Assembly: GCF_016906535.1 (NCBI RefSeq)
Contig: NC_057371.1
Location: 620,001-684,000 of the forward strand
Direction: 5' to 3'
Origin: Rhizoctonia solani
Taxonomy: Eukaryota > Basidiomycota > Agaricomycetes > Cantharellales > Ceratobasidiaceae
DNA: 64,000 nt
A program made the position numbers and the translations under genes. Under the pieces are notes generated by a model. It was not told where the DNA came from. It worked only from the letters and a program-made list of their open reading frames with translations, and made no database searches. This document shows, piece by piece, positions 879-12,800 of the stretch (its first letter is position 1; each line of letters starts with the position of its first letter).

Positions 879-2695
879 ATGTCGCGTTTTGTACGCCCGT
901 CCAAGTACAGGTAAGTACCATTTCACACAAAGATGACCATGACTAACTGTTCAAAAGGCATGTTTTCGGCCAATCCGCAAAGAAGGAATGGTGCATTGAG
1001 AATGTCAAAGTCTCGAATAGCGCCTGGGACACTAATCTGATCAGTGCCTCTGCGGTAGGTGCCATACTAATGACTCTCTACGTTGAATTAAAAATTATAT
1101 GCAGTCATACGTTGCGCTCAACTGGAACTCCTCTGGAGGAGGCGCGTTTGCCATTCTACCAGTCGCGTCCCCGTTCCGCCCATTGCCCCACAATCTCCCA
1201 TACAAACTCCCGGATATCATCCCGCTTGCCCGTGGTCATTCCGCCCCGGTACTCGACACCGACTGGTCGCCGTTCAACGACTCTGTTGTAGCTAGCGGTG
1301 GTGAAGACGGACGTGTGCTCATCTGGAAGGTCGAAGAGTCTCAGTTCGAGAACTGGGGCGCCGAGAAATGGCAGCCACGTGACTTTGATCCTGTCGCGAC
1401 AATTACTGGCTCGGGCCGTAAAGTAGGCCAGGTCTTGTTCCACCCGACAGCTGAGAACGTTCTTGCGAGCTCGACTGTCGGCGATGGGACCGTCAGGCTC
1501 TGGGACCTGGCTGACACGAACGAAGCCAAGATTGCGCTCACGGGACATACCGATACGATTCAGTCGCTGACCTGGAACCCGACTGGAACGCTCTTGGCCA
1601 CCACCTGTCGCGACCGCAAGATTCGGCTGTTTGACCCTCGTGCTGGCAGCGAGGCGGTACGGATTGGTGACGGACATGCAGGTATCAAGGGTGCGCGCGT
1701 TGTGTGGTTGGGCGGACATGATCGTATTGCAACGACTGGGTTCAGCAAGATGAGTGAGCGCCAGCTTGCCCTTTGGGATACCAGCTCGCTGGCAAATATC
1801 AAGACTGTCTCGATTGATCAGTCGTCTGGTGTGATCATGCCGTTCTGGAGCGACAATAATGTTCTGTTCCTGGCTGGCAAAGGGTGGGTGCCATTCATGC
1901 ATCTGATGGACCCAAACTTATGTTCGACTATGCAGAGACGGTAACATCCGGTCGTACGAGTACGAGAACGACAACCTATACGAGCTGTCGGAGTACAAGT
2001 CGATTGATCCTCAGCGAGGAATGTGCTTCCTTCCTCGACGTGCACTTAGCGTGTCGGATTGCGAGATCATGCGAGCGTACAAGGTGTACGGATCGACGAT
2101 CGAGCCGATCGGGTTTGTGGTTCCGCGCAAGGTTTGTATTGCGTCCAATATGGGATTATATTACTGAGCATGTTGACTAGTCGGATCAATTCCAATCCGA
2201 CATCTTCCCGCCTGCACCATCGAGCGAACCAGCGCTTACTGCAGCTGAATGGTTCACGGGTAAGACTGCACCGCAAAACTTGGTCGATTTGGACACCGGA
2301 ACCGTTAGTGCGGCACCTGCTTCTGCTCCGGCTACATTTGCACCCCAGCCGACTCCCGCTGCCGCAGCCCCACCTCCGGCGGCCGCACCGAAGCCAGTTG
2401 ACCCCCCTACACCTGCTTCGATTCCTATCCCACCTACACCTGCGGCGGCTCAAACGCCAATCGCGACCGAGGCAGCTTCTCCATCAAATGAGGTGCGTTC
2501 TATGTAATTGGATGGATCACTCTGTTAAAACCAGAGGCGTAGGCGAACAGCGCATTGGTTGAAGAAAATTCCCGCCTGACGAGCGAGTTACGCGAGGCTC
2601 GCGCTCAAATCCGTAACCTCGAACTTCAGATCGAGGCCATGAAGGCTAATGCACAAAAGGCGGCTAAGGCAATTTTGGAGGCTGGTGGGATTTGA
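879..2695 (+). CDS. CRN1: coronin, actin-binding WD40 protein
   Basis: Six exons: 879-910, 958-1054, 1105-1883, 1936-2131, 2181-2492, 2543-2695, giving 522 residues with all phases agreeing. The N-terminus (MSRFVRPSKYRHVFGQ, then AWDTNLI and LNWNSSGGGAF) is the invariant coronin start. WD40 blades follow (SGGEDGRVLIW, GDGTVRLWDL, RDRKIRLFDPRAG) and then the conserved GFVVPRK segment at the end of the propeller. After this comes an Ala/Pro-rich linker (about residues 370-470) and a C-terminal heptad coiled coil (about 475-520), the usual oligomerisation tail. Coronins bind F-actin and coordinate Arp2/3 and cofilin at cortical patches (family knowledge). Compare the truncated paralogue at 6547-8996. 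The start is the only ATG giving the coronin N-terminus. Confidence 0.95.
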
Positions 2696-3250
2696 GTAAA
2701 TTCAAGATATAGACTCGCCTGGGGCGACAAAAACGGAAAGGAACTGGGATAGAATTGATAATTTTTTCATGCCTGTATCATGACGCGATGATGCAATGTC
2801 ACTACTTGACGAAACTCGAGGTAGTCGGAGGTTAATGACGGCCGGCGAGGGGCGATGATGTCGGTAGGGTCTCGGCCTCAGAGGATAAGTGTCCGTCGGC
2901 GCCCGCGGCATGGGTCGACTACGCTTGGCATAGCCACGTTGGCGCTTATGAACGTGGGCCATCGTGTATCATCTTCTCTCCACCACGACCTGGTTTCGGC
3001 CACATCACCTTTTTGAGAATTCTACTACAAGTTACTTCTAGGAATCGTCGCTGGTGACTCGATTTTGAACACCACTTGTGGCAACCCGTTGCTGTGATCT
3101 TCTTGGAAACAACACAGTATCTCGGATCCTGATCGACGAACGAGCACCAGACGATAAAGTGGTCTCGCGCTTACGACGTTCGCATTGATTTATAACTCTC
3201 TGCTGGTACTAGGCTCGACTATTGCATTTGGGTTGTGCACACCAGGCCTC
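2696..3250. other. intergenic between coronin and HUA1-like gene
   Basis: This stretch holds the coronin 3' region and HUA1-like 5' flank. I see no supported coding sequence. An in-frame TTG-initiated extension of the downstream gene exists (from 3185) but has no ATG and is hydrophobic, unlike the rest of that protein. This segment has no counterpart in the second copy of the block; it lies within the deleted part. Confidence 0.4.
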
Positions 3251-4738
3251 ATGGCTACCTCGCTACATCCTCACTCTTCCAATCCCTTTCGAGATCCTAA
3301 TAGGACTCCAGCAGTGACGCCGCAAGCTACGGGGACATCGACCACTTCGTTGAACCCGTTCTTGCATCCAGCTGAAACGGTGACGCCACAAGCAACAGGT
3401 ACAAGCCAGTACTTTACTCCTCAACCCACTGGAACACTATCACCCCAAGCAACCGGAGCGCATTCAACCGCTGCACCCATCGAAACACAAAGCACCGGAT
3501 CATACTATACCCCTACTTCCTCGAACTTGGGGGCCGAATCTACTACGTCGTACACACCACCCAGCGGCCCTCCTCCCTCAGCAACTCCCACACCCAGCTC
3601 CCCACCCAGATCTACATATGCACCACCAGAGGGGCCTCCTCCGCAGCGATATGCACCTCCATCAGGTCCACCTCCACAGCCTCGAGCACCATCCCCGACT
3701 CCGACTATAAACGTGGAGCCACCGCCTCCTTATACCCCGGCAGCCGATGTTCGGCACGGAGAAATACCACTCGAAACTGGTCCTCGCCGCGCCTATGCAC
3801 CCGATTGGCACCCAGACGGACGAACATGGCGCAACGAGCATGTGCCCGCACCCACTTCACCCAGTCCACCCGCCACAAGGACGGAAACACAATGGGATTC
3901 GCTGGCTTCCACCTGGAGGCGACCGAGCGCGAGCGCCAGTTCACCCAATCTGGCTACTCAGCAGACAGGATCGAATAGCTCGTGGAGCGAGTATCCTGGG
4001 CTGGCACGGCATGGGACGACGGTTCGGCCTCCTCCCAGGCATCCTTCTCAGCCTTTGGAGCGAGCGAACACAGCTGTTGGGACTGGTTCGTCTCGCGTTG
4101 GGCCTGGGCCGCCGACCACGACTCCGACCCCTGGGCGAGCTTTGCTGCATAACGGCAAGGTCCTGGCTTATCCTGCTCAATACGAATGTAACAAATGTCA
4201 GTATAGGTTTTTGATGGCGTGTTAGCTGGGTGCTGACTTGAATTTAGGTCACCTTACTGGTTACGTGGCCTATGATCCATCCAATCCGTGCCGCGAATGT
4301 TGGTCGCTGTTTGCTCAGCCTTATGAAGGAGTACTGAGCTTTGCGCCTTGGGACTCTCCTGAGTCTGTTACTTCGGATGAACAAAACCTCCAGCGACCTC
4401 TACCCTCGTCTAGTTCTCCCCGGACCCAGTCGAGGCCTCAACGACCCTTGGCCAGTTCATCGCGCCCCGTCTCTCATCCCCAGCATTCGTCCTATGGACC
4501 AGGGCAACCTCTCGGATCGTTACCCCCTGCTGGCTGGTCGTCGTCCTCGAGCTTGAGACCCTCGGCTACATTATCCTACGGCCGGCCTCCTCGGGGAGCG
4601 CTCGTTGTTCGACCGGGTGATCCTAGGATAGGCGGAAGAGTGTGTTGGAAGTGCAGTGGCGATGGTTGGCAATACAAGACGATGGGGTTGGAGACCAAGA
4701 CGTGCTCGGCGTGCAACGGGCTGGGCAGGCTATTTTAG
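3251..4738 (+). CDS. HUA1: HUA1-like proline-rich zinc-ribbon protein
   Basis: Two exons, 3251-4196 and 4248-4738, split by a 51-bp intron; 478 residues. The N-terminal two thirds are disordered and Pro/Ser/Thr-rich, with two NPF motifs (residues 11-13 and 35-37), five hydrophobic-x-x-Q-x-T-G motifs (VTPQATG twice, FTPQPTG, LSPQATG, IETQSTG) and one PPPY motif (EPPPPYTPA). The C-terminus holds cysteine pairs ECNKC and CREC, then VVRPGDPRIGGRVCWKCSGDGW and CSACNGLG, a DnaJ-like C-x2-C-x-G-x-G arrangement. That tail and the PPxY match yeast Hua1, a cytoplasmic protein linked to Rsp5 and actin patches (family knowledge). NPF suggests EH-domain partners. The start is the first ATG of the frame; an upstream TTG extension is hydrophobic and was rejected. 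Confidence 0.8.
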
Positions 4739-4885: not shown

Positions 4886-6546
4886 CGAGAGAGCTGGCAA
4901 TCGAATTGCTATTGGCTGCCTAAGGTTGTGATTTATGTGACTAGTTGTATCTCTAGTTCTTTTTATTTGTGCTCACAATGCCAGTGCAATTGACTCTTGT
5001 CCACTAGAATAATGCTTTTACTAAACCTCTATCTAGCATTGCTGATATAATAGAGTTTGAAGAGTTTGATCTAGGTGGATTTGATGAAGATAAAAAGACA
5101 AACAAGCAACTTGCTTGTGAGCCTGTTGATTGAGGGGCTCTCAGTGCTCAAGACTGGATGGATAACTTCAGGTACACCATCTAGAACCTCTATAATATGC
5201 TCTCAACTAATAATCCTTTACCGGGTTTACTGATTTTAAAGTGTATAAATTGATTGTAGCATTGGACATACCTGATTGTATGCTGTGTGACAACAGTGCT
5301 TCTGTCCTAGACACGCTCATGACAGACCAGTTGCAAGTGGTTACATACTGGCTCAAGCACGCACACAGGGGCTAGCAGGTGTGATTATATGTATTGCTTC
5401 TCAACGGAGCTGGCTCCGAGTGTGGCTACTATAATACTAAAACACAATGTGTGCAAGGCTATCAATTGAACAAGAATGCATGTGCATTATATACATTATA
5501 TATTGAAGGAGATCTAAGCGCGTGAGTAAAACATACGATACGAATAGAGATAAGACTGTGTATAATATGGGGCACTTTGACACAGTACCATGGTCCAGCA
5601 ACAGGTCTACCATTCGTGGAAGAAGAGGACACGGCCGAACCCACATCTCCGGCCAGCTCCGGACCTTAACCAGACGGGGGTGATTAGGCTAACAGGTCAA
5701 CAACCTGGCGAGGAAGCTATCTCAAGTAGTCCTCTCCAGTGTCTTCTTAGTAACCGAGACGGCAAACGAACGGGCGAAGAGTTTCCGGCAAGGGATCTTG
5801 GACAGGGAATAGAACATCATCGAATGTATGCCTCGGATCGTACTCGGATCTCTAAGGATAGAAGAAAAAGCGAGCTACCCTCGAAAACTACTCAGGAGGA
5901 GCTGACCCTAAACAGCGTCCGAGACGACCCGGATGTCCGCGATGCTACTCACCATGTTGCCAAGTAAACCCACCCCCGGAACGGATGTCGAGACGCGAGA
6001 CGCCAGTAAGGGGCTCAAGACCCTCGACCCAGAACAGCTGTGTATCTTTCTGTGAGAGCTCGAGCTCAAGCGACCGTCTATGCTTCAAAGATCTGATCGA
6101 AATGAAACGAAAGGGGAAAGAAGAGGTGAGGGAGTGAATGGAGTTAATTGATTGAGATGGCCAATACTATCTGGAGGGCGAATGTAACGGGTGCGCGATA
6201 TTGGCTGATTGATCTCGATTATATGCGCGGTCCCTCACGTGACGGACTCGCCGGCCAGCCTGCCCCTCCTGGCTGTTTGTGTTTGATTCCTAACTGTATA
6301 ACCTCGTTTACTTTGTTTCGCTTGCTGATGTATCACTCGTGGCAACCTTATAAGGACCCGAGACAAACCTCCTCATCCCGATCTTTACTTCGAACCACAA
6401 CGATCGAGTGTTCTACGAATTGTCATTATCTTGGCAATTCGGTGGCGATTGACATTCGTGGTTTCAGTGGAATATAAGTAGAGACCCCACAGAAACACAA
6501 TAAATACCGTTATCACCTACAGCCCTTCCCACGAACAACGAGTATC
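4886..6546. other. spacer between the two coronin/HUA1 blocks, with possible relic coding sequence
   Basis: The duplicated 3' region ends near 4886. The rest contains no complete gene. On the plus strand 5590-5967 is an open stretch rich in charged residues, and a second frame at 5942-6054 ends in a segment reading GLKTLDPEQLCIFL before a stop. These could be remains of a transposable element gag-like gene, but I see no reverse transcriptase, integrase or terminal repeats. The last 150 bases before 6547 act as the leader of the chimeric gene and are only weakly similar to the coronin leader. Confidence 0.3.
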
Positions 6547-8996
6547 ATGTCACGTTTTGTACGCCCGTCCAAGTATAGGTAAGTAGCATTGCACATAAAG
6601 ATGTCCATGACTAACTATTCAAAAGGCATGTTTTTGGCCAATCTGCAAAGAAGGAATGGTGCATTGAGAATGTCAAAGTCTCGAATAGCGCCTGGGACAC
6701 TAATCTGATCAGTGCCTCTGCGGTATGTGCTCCATCAATAGCCCTTTGCGTTGAACTGAACATTATACTCAGTCATACGTTGCACTTAACTGGAACTCGT
6801 CTGGAGGAGGTGTATTCGCTATTCTGCCAGTCGCATCTCCATTCCGCCCATTGCCCCATAACTTCCCATGTAAACTCCCGGGCATCATCCCACTCGCTCG
6901 TGGTCATTCTGCCCCTGTACTCGACACCGACTGGTCGCCTTTCAACGACTCTGTTGTGGCTAGTGGTGGCGAAGACGGACGTGTGCTTATCTGGAAAGTC
7001 GAAGAGTCCCAGTTCGAGAACTGGGGAGCCGAGAAATGGCGGCCACGCGACTTTGATCCTGTCGCGACAATTACTGGCTCGGGCCGTAAAGTCGGCCAGG
7101 TCTTGTTCCACCCGACTGCTGAGAACGTTCTTGCGAGCTCGACTGTCGGCGATGGGACCGTCAGGCTCTGGGACCTGGCCGACACGAACGAAGCCAAGAT
7201 TGCGCTCACGGGACATACCGATACGATTCAGTCGCTGACCTGGAACCCGACTGGAACACTCTTGGCCACCACCTGTCGCGACCGCAAGATTCGGCTGTTT
7301 GACCCTCGTGCTGGCAGTGAGGCGGTACGGATTGGCGACGGCCATGCAGGTATCAAGGGTGCGCGCGTTGTGTGGTTGGGCGGACATGATCGTATTGCGA
7401 CGACTGGGTTCAGCAAGATAAGTGGGCGCCAGCTTGCTCTTTGGGATACTAGCTCGTTGGCGAATATCAAGACGGTGTCGATTGATCAGTCGTCTGGTGT
7501 GATCATGCCGTTCTGGAGCGACAACAACGTTCTGTTCCTGGCTGGCAAGGGGTGGGTGCCATTCATGCATCTGATGGACTCGAACTTATGTTTGGCTATG
7601 CAGAGACGGTAACATCCGGTCGTACGAGTACGAGAACGACAACCTATACGAGCTGTCGGAGTACAAGTCGATTGACCCTCAGCGAGGAATGTGCTTCCTT
7701 CCTCGACGTGCGCTTAGCGTGTCGGACTGCGAAATCATGCGTGTGTACAAGGTGTACGGGTCGACGATCGAGCCGATCGGGTTTGTGGTTCCGCGCAAGG
7801 TTTGTATTGCGTCCAATATGGGATTATATTACTGAGCATGTTGACTAGTCGGATCAATTCCAATCCGACATCTTCCCGCCTGCACCATCGAGCGAACCAG
7901 CGCTTACTGCAGCTGAATGGTTCGCGGGTAAGACTGCACCGCAAAACCTGGTCGATCTGGACACTGGGGCGGTTAGTGCGGCATCTTTCTCTGTTCCGGC
8001 TATATTTGCGCCGCAACCGACTCCCGCTGCCGCAGCTCCACCCCCGGCGGCTACACCGAACCCGGTTGACCCTGCTTCGATTCCTCTCCCGCCTACACCT
8101 GCGACGGCTCAAACGCCGGTCCCGACCGAGGTAGCTTCTCCATCAAATGAGGTACGTTGCATGTAACCGGGTGGACCACCCTATTAATACCAGAGGCGTA
8201 GGCGAACAGCATACTGGCTGAAGAAAATGCCCGCCTGGCGAGCGAGCTACGCGAGGCTCGCGCTCGAATCGTTGGCCTCGAACTGGGGGTCGTCCAGCCT
8301 CCTCCCAGGAATCCTCCTCAGCCTCTCGGACCGGAAATTAAGACGGTTGGGACTGGTTCGTCTCGTATTGTGCATGGTCGGCCGACGACGATCCCGATGC
8401 CCGGGCGAGCTTTATTGCATGATGGAAAGGCTCTGGCTTATCCTGCTCAGTATGAATGCAATCAATGTCAGTATTAGGCTTTTTGATGGTGCTAGCTGGA
8501 TACTGACTCAGACCCAGGTCACCTTACTGGTTATGTAGCCTATGATCCATCCAATCCGTGCCGCGAATGTTGGTCGCTGTTTGCTCAGCCTTACAAAGAA
8601 GTACTGAGCTTTGCACCCTGGGACTCTCCTGAGTCTGTTACTTCGGATGAACAAAACCTCCAACGACCACTTCCATTGTCTAGTTCTCTCCGGCCCCAGC
8701 CGAGGCCTCAACCACCCTCGGCGAGTCCATCGCATTCCCAGCATTCGTTCCATGGACCAGGGCAACCTTTTGGATCGTCATTCCCTACGGGCTGGTCGTC
8801 GTCCTCGAACTTGAGACCCTCGGTCACGGTATGCCGCGGCGGGCCTCCCCCGGGTGCGCTCATTGTCCGACCGGGTGATTCTAGAATAGGTGGAACAGTC
8901 TGCTTGAAGTGTAGCGGAAACGGCTGGCAATACATAATGCTGAAATTGGCTACCAAGACATGCTCGGCGTGCGACGGGCTGGGCAGGCTGTTTTAG
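6547..8996 (+). CDS. chimeric coronin-HUA1 fusion gene
   Basis: Seven exons: 6547-6578, 6626-6722, 6773-7551, 7604-7799, 7849-8151, 8202-8466, 8518-8996. They total 2151 nt, 716 residues, with consistent phases and no stop. Exons 1-5 match coronin closely. In exon 6 the coronin coiled coil starts (NSILAEENARLASELREAR) but near 8283-8295 changes without loss of frame into the HUA1-like protein (PPPRNPPQP, then PGRALLHDGKALAYPAQYEC). The 51-bp intron and last exon of the HUA1-like gene follow. The protein therefore keeps the WD40 propeller and linker, loses about half of the coiled coil, loses the NPF, QxTG and PPxY motifs, and gains the cysteine-rich tail (CNQC, CREC, CLKCSGNGW, CSACDGLG). Both parents are actin-patch proteins, so the product could be functional; expression is unknown. 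Confidence 0.85.
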
Positions 8997-9896: not shown

Positions 9897-12800
9897 ATGA
9901 GGCCATCTCGACTTTTTTCCCTTGTGCTCACGCTTGTGAGCTGGGAATTCGTCTCTGCCCTTGTGGTAAGCTTCTGGTTGATTGGTGGTTTGGGTTGGTT
10001 CTCAATTAGGTTTTTTTTTAGGTGGACAAGCGTCAGAGTCTTCCGACTTCAGAAGTCAAGCTACAGAGCTATACCCTCAATGGTAATAGCTTCTCTGGTA
10101 GCATCTACGTTAGTATATACTCCTCGAACACATTTCTTGGGCAAATAACATCATGTTCTACAGATCAAGAATATTGCCTATCAGAAAGTGGTTACCGTCA
10201 TCTATTCCAACGCTGCCAACAGCTGGGTCAGTGGTCAATCGGTTTCGGCGTCGTACAGCGGTTCTATCAGCGGCTCAAACTATGAGACTTGGACGTTCTC
10301 GGGTACCATTGGCTCTGGTGGCATCAAGCAGTTTTACATTCGCTACGATGTTTCTGGCACTTCGTACTATGACAATAATGGCACTAAGGTAAAGCTGTTC
10401 AGAAACAACCCCTTATCTTGTGCTAATTAGTGACTTTTAGAACTACGATGTAGGTACTACGACCACAACTACTACAGCGCCGAGTACGACAACCACCAGG
10501 GTCACCACCACAGCTGCTACCACCACTACCACAGCTATCACTACTTCCCGCGTCACTACTACTACTTCGGTAGCTACTACGCCTACGTCCACCGTCAGCA
10601 CGTCTTATATCCCCACGCCGTCCAACATTCCTCCTGAACTTACTCCTTGCAATACTTGGAATGGACAAGACGCATGCAGTGGATCTCAGGTCGAATACCC
10701 TGCCAGCTGGGATGATCGCAAAGTACGTTCAAATTTCCTCAAGATCAACTCTTTTCTAATCAGAATACGCAGTGGCAAACTCCGTCTCGCGGAACCTCGG
10801 CCTGGTCCTCTGGTTTCCAAGATTACCGCGAGCTCACGGGTTACGTCGACATTTTTTACAACTCGGCCCGTACTTCTGCAACCGTCACCGTCAAGGCCAA
10901 CTCTCGCACCGGAGTTGCGCTTTCGTATAGTTTCAATGGCGGTGCTTTTGGAAGTGGCGCATCCGCAACTGTGACTAGCTCCTTTACTGGCCCATACGCG
11001 ATTTCGGTCAAGGATGCAAACGGCGCCACCTTGGCTTTCGACGGTGCGTTGCCCAAATTCTTAATCTCATTTGGTCGGCTGATGTTAGATTAGCTACCTA
11101 CTTTGTCTGGGATGCCCCCGCTGTCAATCGTCCCGAGACGAATGGTGGACAAAAAGTCGCGATTGTCGAGCTTTTCGGATGGCCATACGCCGATATTGAG
11201 AAAGAATGTGTTTTCCTTGGAAAGGCCGGTTATGGTGGTGTAAGAATCTGGCCTCCATCTGGTATGTTCATCCGTATTGGGATTGCCATGAGAGCTTATT
11301 CTCTTTGCAGAGGCGGTTACTTCTGACTGGTGGCCCCAATCAAACGAGCTCAAGTGAGTCATTTTCCTATTTGTTTTATCATCTGATATTTATGCCGTTT
11401 CCTTTAGCCCCTGGTGGTTCGTCTACCAGCCTGTCTCCTATCGTCTTATTAGCCGCCATGGCACCCTCGCTCAGCTTCGAAGCATGATCACGACATGCCG
11501 CGCAAACGGTGTCCGCGTATATGCTGATGCGGTCGTCAACCACATGGTAAGCTAATCCCCTACGCCAAATGACTTGTTCCTGAAAGATTTTGTTCCTAGT
11601 CCGGAGGCGGTAACGATATCCAAAATCACCGTGGCTCTGGCTCGGCACCCACTTGTGGTTGGTATGGACCCAAGAACGGGACCGCTGGAAGCCCATTCTT
11701 CACGCATACATCAACCTACCAATACAATACTCAAACCGGTTTGCGTCCGGCGATGGAATACCCCGCTGTTCCTTACAGCCCGACCGATTTCCACTGTGAC
11801 CGCTCGCTAAACTCGTTTACCGATGGCTTCATCCTCAACTACGGTCAGTTTTCTTTTGGTTGGAAATTATATATTCATCATCTGATATTATATAACACAG
11901 GCTGGTTGGTTGGTTTGTCCGACTTGAACACCGAGAAACCATATGTACAAGAACGTATTGCAACCTATTTCGCTACCCTTCTCAGCGTCGGTGAGTCTTT
12001 TCCTATCGTTATCGGCCTCCGACGGCTAACAAGTGCGGTATTTCAAAGGATTCAGCGGATTCCGTATTGACGCTGCAAAGCATATGGGCCCTAAGAATAT
12101 TGCTCAGATTCTCGCACGCCTCAAGACTAAAATGGGTGGTTCTCTACCGCCAGATTTCATCACTTGGCTCGAGATTATTCTTGGAGGCGAGAAGGACCTT
12201 CTCGCATGCTCGTACAAGTGCGTATATCTTGGCATACTATTTTGCTTGCATACTAATTTGCGCCCCAAGCGATTACAATTGGTATCAATACTTCAATGAA
12301 CAAATGTCAGCAGCCGGCTTGAGTTCCACTGAAATTGGATATGTTAAAATCTGGTCGTCAGATTACCCCAAGGTTTGTGACGCTGCAAGTGGTTTGATTG
12401 CCTGCCTAACACCCATTACAGGAATATCCCATCTGTGGATCGTGGATTCTGCCTCCTTCCCGATTCGTCATCCAGAACGATGATCATGACCAACAAAATG
12501 ACGGTTCCAGCTCGCGCGATATGGGTGACAAGGCAAGGCACTATTCTGAATATCTCAAATTATTCTAACCTCTCATATAGGGCTCCGTACTTATCAAAGA
12601 CAAGAATATAGCCACCCACCGAAACTTCGAAGTCCAGCTGTTCACCCAGACTGGATTTAACGCAAACGTTAGGAACATTCTGTCCTCGTATTCCTTCAGG
12701 AGCAACGGCGCCAAGGTTTGTTAATTTTGCCAATTCGGGAGCTGGTGTAAATGCTAAATGTTTTGCCAATAGGGATTCCCTGACGGCTATTCTGATTGCT

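Follow-up and report, generated by a model that had tools for sequence, protein, structure and literature searches.

We find that Rhizoctonia solani carries, within the 64,000-nucleotide window analysed here (the whole stretch of DNA under study), a gene that joins a coronin in frame to the C-terminal part of its neighbour, a HUA1-like gene (Table 1). An origin as a tandem duplicate that underwent an in-frame deletion is near certain. The role of the product is a more tentative matter. We assign a probability of roughly 0.4 to the reading that this is a chimeric, possibly LTR-driven gene whose protein would tether to actin a deregulated HUA1 fragment, uncoupled from its ubiquitin ligase, and would modulate or compete with both parents.

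Table 1 Features of the two gene copies and of the DNA upstream of the fusion (window coordinates).
Feature	Position	Strand	Description
Copy 1 coronin, parent A	879..2695	+	Intact, six exons, 522 aa after splicing; DUF1899, WD40 and WD40_4 matches
Copy 1 HUA1-like gene, parent B	3251..4738	+	Intact, two exons, 478 aa after splicing
Stretch without counterpart in copy 2	2626..4012 (about)	+	From comparison of the copies; about 1.39 kb
Degenerate internal 3' part of LTR retrotransposon	5653..6182	+	Sense to the fusion; 66-79% matches elsewhere in the genome
Degenerate 3' LTR	6183..6491	+	TG...CA ends; alignment to 8 genomic LTR copies; sense to the gene
TATA-like box ACCTTATAAGG	6345..6355	+	Conserved among aligned LTR copies
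Fusion gene (copy 2)	6547..8996	+	Seven exons, 716 codons after splicing; deposited P0001 identical
Identical stretch, 163 bases	7761..7923 (= copy 1 2093-2255)	+	Includes a whole 49-base intron
Fusion junction	8285..8296 (about)	+	Within exon 6 (8202-8466); coronin coiled coil to HUA1
First HUA1 zinc module	8457..8570	+	C555, C558, C572, C575; interrupted by intron 8467-8517; predicted fold of relative P0003
Second, DnaJ-like zinc module	8901..8972	+	C686, C689, C706, C709

The parental HUA1-like gene starts 555 bases past the coronin in copy 1. It has a DnaJ_CXXCXGXG match that lies under the Pfam family cut-off, and two of its distant relatives bear the name Proline-rich protein HUA1. In the coronin part the two copies are identical at 91.9% of 1738 aligned bases; in the HUA1 part and its tail the figure is 84.5% of 793 bases. 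Such values exclude a chance likeness. Missing from copy 2 are the last ~22 codons and the stop of the coronin, the intergenic DNA and the first ~254 codons of the HUA1-like gene. The initial annotation had proposed a tandem duplication with an internal deletion of about 2635-4025; the intact parents in copy 1 and the gap in copy 2 agree with this, and the limits that we obtained are close to those proposed. A DNA search of the 40.7 Mb genome (16 contigs) found nothing besides the fusion and copy 1 in its two pieces. Another gene lies downstream on the plus strand, at 9898-12070 and beyond, which by eye we take to resemble a secreted starch-binding or alpha-amylase-type protein.

Copy 2 was spliced in silico from exons 6547-6578, 6626-6722, 6773-7551, 7604-7799, 7849-8151, 8202-8466 and 8518-8996, giving 2151 nt that read openly through 716 codons to a stop. 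No stop, frameshift or splice-site defect was found across these codons. All six introns have GT-AG ends and each lies at its copy 1 place, which rules out a processed retrogene. At the junction, residue 500 of the copy 1 coronin (497 in the fusion) is followed by about residue 255 of HUA1, and fusion residues 518-716 align with HUA1. Chance alone would preserve the frame at such a junction about one time in three. The architecture read from the letters at the outset is thus borne out: the frame is intact over 716 codons, the junction, claimed at 8283-8295, falls inside one exon, and the downstream intron (8466/8518) and the stop are retained. The accompanying statement that no such protein was known is incorrect, because P0001, deposited as 'coronin [Rhizoctonia solani]', is letter for letter the spliced product. 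Its public name omits the HUA1 half of the architecture. Among the best matches in the open-access literature we found no description of a coronin-HUA1 fusion, and the text of a paper on duplication in AG1-IA (PMC9890813) contains 'fusion' once, for hyphal fusion, and none of 'fused', 'chimeric' and 'tandem'.

We also examined a second R. solani assembly and the proteins of related fungi. In the second assembly the junction peptide is present in P0012. The contigs of this protein, of P0015, a plain coronin, and of P0002 (tag RHS01_03553), a plain HUA1, are all of 1,783,493 bases; the C-termini of P0015 and P0002 match copy 1. The P0012 and P0015 models skip or misread coding stretches, and the records look mis-annotated. 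Coronin domains occur in three of the 87 HUA1-like matches (7989 candidates scored), namely P0001, P0012 and P0011, the outcome of a search for a propeller with a HUA1 C-terminus that the initial annotation had suggested. P0011 (Ceratobasidium sp. 423, 780 aa, partial) was rejected as a second fusion since it is without the coronin coiled coil but has the larger part of HUA1's N-terminal half; we read it as a model in which the two neighbouring genes were run together. The fusion was found here in two R. solani assemblies only, both probably AG1-IA. An ancestral fusion that later split into the two parents was likewise rejected, as the other Ceratobasidiaceae found have plain coronins (six, of 519-528 aa) and plain HUA1 proteins. 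Another R. solani has the same coronin/HUA1 neighbourhood, with adjacent tags ACGC1H_003876 and _003877. Furthermore, in Heliocybe sulcata and Hysterangium stoloniferum coronin/HUA1-like pairs lie on contigs of equal size (P0029/P0142, 661520 bases; P0115/P0154, 792472 bases), so this linkage may predate the Ceratobasidiaceae; several other species have the two proteins on contigs of unequal size.

The coronin half of the fusion retains three domains of the family. It matches PF08953 (DUF1899) at 97.2 bits (cut-off 20.7), PF00400 (WD40) at 74 (27) and PF16300 (WD40_4) at 69 (27), as in short fungal coronins of the Crn1 type, and residues 3-413 align to solved coronins. In contrast to a Crn1-type coronin, the coiled-coil end is ~22 residues shorter, its core is altered and a HUA1 half is added. 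Of the last coronin exon, the first ~28 residues are retained, and the core sequence AQIRNLELQ, conserved in relatives, has become ARIVGLELG. Class-4 coronins and villidin, as presented in an extract from PMC3203266, offer a precedent for the joining of a coronin domain to another protein after duplication and fusion. In the class-4 proteins, which are described there from several eukaryotic branches, the coronin domain precedes PH and gelsolin domains and a villin headpiece. The fusion differs from them in its partner and in that we found the join in a single species; no gelsolin or villin headpiece follows its coronin domain among the best 25 of 38 Pfam matches.

The fusion resembles HUA1, known in yeast as the Rsp5 adaptor Hua1, in having both C-terminal zinc modules. 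All eight of their cysteines are kept, giving the two-module pattern of HUA1, and we infer that both modules bind zinc. For the HUA1 relative P0003, structure prediction (51 sequences, mean pLDDT 60) gave low confidence in the N-terminal half and two confident stretches, at about 271-340 and 421-471. Because of this pattern, the deletion looks to have cut within an apparently disordered stretch and to have spared both modules.

The N-terminal half of HUA1 is in contrast absent from the fusion, and with it every NPF, Ark1/Prk1-type and PPxY motif of the parent. The parent has two NPF, five [LIVM]xx[QNTS]xTG and one PPxY, against means in shuffled sequences of 0.03, 0.13 and 0.54, respectively. 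Because of the last of these values, the single PPxY is supported by its conservation rather than by its count; its column does not vary among 51 HUA1-like proteins chosen from the matches. In each of eight Ceratobasidiaceae HUA1 relatives there are two NPF motifs and 3-5 matches to [LIVM]xx[QNTS]xTG. A motif scan of the fusion found no PPxY and no NPF, and one kinase-type match, located in the propeller and common to the plain coronin. NPF motifs bind EH domains. The [LIVM]xx[QNTS]xTG pattern is the Ark1/Prk1 consensus given in an extract from PMC4775215, and the motif set of the parent, judged from its sequence, is the layout of endocytic-coat regulators. According to extracts from PMC9105457, yeast Hua1 is one of the PY-motif adaptors that serve the ubiquitin ligase Rsp5 in multivesicular-body sorting, and it is needed for an interaction with the ESCRT-0 protein Hse1. 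The initial annotation had placed both parents in the cortical actin machinery. Its layout of a propeller joined to zinc modules stands, but the placement of HUA1 is too simple, given this adaptor role and the PPxY, NPF and Ark1/Prk1-type motifs of the parent. Because these motifs are lost, the fusion product is not simply its two parents combined.

The homology of copy 2 to copy 1 begins about 20 bases 5' of the ATG, and nothing within 4886-6546 matches the 5' flank of copy 1 (1-878); the fusion therefore has no recognisable coronin promoter. Directly upstream of it lies the old 3' end of a retrotransposon, which the initial annotation had missed. The sequence at about 5653-6492 matches elements in the genome, one of which encodes, in a long frame, an integrase zinc-binding domain (PF17921), and the LTR ends 55 bases before the ATG of the fusion. 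No ATG occurs in the 202 bases between the TATA-like box and the start codon, which holds for 5.6% of shuffles too, and the ATG-free leader is only mildly unusual. From this arrangement, the LTR promoter possibly reads out into the fusion. Two solo LTR copies have 5-base target duplications, seen by eye in the LTR alignment. Elements L021, L022 and L024 (C5, C10 and C6) belong to the same family and are 97-98% alike over about 3.1 kb, which suggests that this family was recently active.

To see how the copies have evolved we compared them codon by codon. In the propeller (400 codons) there are 56 synonymous and 9 nonsynonymous differences, a pairwise Ka/Ks of 0.04 (interval 0.02-0.08), while the values for the linker (88 codons) and the HUA1 part (199 codons) are 0.37 and 0.30 (0.19-0.46), respectively. 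The fusion propeller thus looks constrained overall and the remainder looser, and the low pairwise value supports the view that, since the duplication, the propeller has at some stage been under purifying selection. When polarised with five outgroup coronins, 8-9 of the 9 propeller changes fall on the fusion and 0-1 on the parent; the linker is less one-sided (5-10 versus 2-5, of 15-16). Similarly, against each of ten outgroup HUA1 proteins the fusion has more unique changes than the parent (from 33 versus 5 to 16 versus 7). Four of the nine propeller changes hit sites at least 98% conserved in 106 coronins, close to random expectation (150 of 398 sites), whereas the parent and six close relatives have no changes at those sites. 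Changes in the HUA1 part are rarer at basidiomycete-conserved sites (5/51 versus 38/146, p 0.018), but at the sites that do not vary among seven near Ceratobasidiaceae HUA1 proteins the deficit is not significant (21/119 versus 22/78, p 0.11). The coding indels, of 9, 3 and 12 bases, preserve the frame and the noncoding ones are of 1, 1, 2, 8, 2 and 3 bases, both 3-base gaps being near block edges and the 2-base gap at 8285 being the junction edge itself. The 163-base tract is the longest identical run between the copies (p <= 0.0002 in 5000 class-preserving permutations; mean 67, maximum 159) and is likely the result of gene conversion. Ks therefore cannot date the event, and the pairwise constraint may partly predate the fusion.

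These patterns bear on what kind of gene this is. The main rival to a functional chimera is a decaying duplicate, a by-product that is little or not expressed and under relaxed constraint, yet unbroken by a stop. The predominance of polarised changes on the fusion, the random-like spread of propeller changes over near-invariant sites, the 21 altered sites that are otherwise invariant in close HUA1 relatives and the want of a recognisable promoter of its own all point that way. However, 716 codons free of any stop, frameshift or splice-site defect, the propeller Ka/Ks, the frame-preserving coding indels and the full set of zinc-module cysteines do not fit well with decay, and we regard it as possible, though on the doubtful side. 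Constraint that is so much stronger in the propeller than in the linker and HUA1 part, in pairwise comparison, could also mean that selection acts on a second coronin, useful for dosage or as a sub-functional form, while the HUA1 half is an idle passenger that does no harm; gene conversion, which holds the coronin part near its parent, would agree with this. Against it are the preservation in the fusion of all eight cysteines and of 46 among the 51 HUA1 sites that are deeply conserved, and the altered core of the coronin's own coiled coil, and we consider this explanation unlikely.

Two further alternatives concern the product and the assembly. If intron 8467-8517 were retained, the protein would end just past the junction (..NQCQY) without zinc modules, and P0012 in the second assembly is annotated with exactly that end. 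Since the GT-AG ends are intact, the parent HUA1 gene needs the same intron, P0001 is modelled with the intron removed and the P0012 model, which skips other coding stretches, looks poorly predicted, intron retention seems very improbable. We found nothing in favour of an assembly artefact or a mis-joined haplotype. The copies differ by 8-16%, the DNA between them includes an old LTR remnant, and the second assembly contains both copies and the same junction, so that the misassembly of copy 2 against which the initial annotation had advised a check is scarcely credible.

Our preferred reading remains the chimeric, possibly LTR-driven gene. Duplication of the coronin and HUA1 neighbours, with the loss in copy 2, produced the in-frame join, and the LTR promoter of the upstream retrotransposon end would drive it. 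Yeast coronin Crn1 decorates actin patches (extract from PMC10558290), and the product may be directed to such patches by its constrained propeller and shortened coiled coil, carrying there the two zinc modules of HUA1. With no NPF, Ark1/Prk1-type and PPxY motifs left from HUA1, these modules would escape placement by EH domains, control by these kinases and linkage to Rsp5. Such a protein could modulate or compete with both of its parents.

Chimeric genes that arise by tandem duplication and deletion, or by capture of a retrotransposon promoter, are a known class. The gene described here shares with them the retained introns, the joined neighbours and the upstream LTR, and differs in its pair of partners, coronin and HUA1 being neighbours in several relatives. 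Domain-extended coronins are already known as well; what differs here is the HUA1 partner and the retrotransposon-associated origin. The case illustrates how two neighbours can give rise to a new multidomain protein through duplication, loss of one control region, an adjacent retrotransposon end and an in-frame deletion, and as both parents are still present, the fusion can be compared with them directly. The finding also corrects the public record that names P0001 just 'coronin', and provides a testable link between coronin and a HUA1 adaptor, the HUA1 of R. solani having Rsp5-type, NPF and Ark1/Prk1-type motifs. In its widest form, which we put forward tentatively and think somewhat unlikely as a whole, R. 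solani, probably AG1-IA, would have gained a new LTR-driven gene that places a HUA1 fragment on actin, free of Rsp5 and kinase control, and so rewires the coupling of actin patches to cargo sorting; by the logic that fused proteins work together, it would also indicate that one pathway includes both coronin and HUA1, whose genes lie side by side in these fungi.
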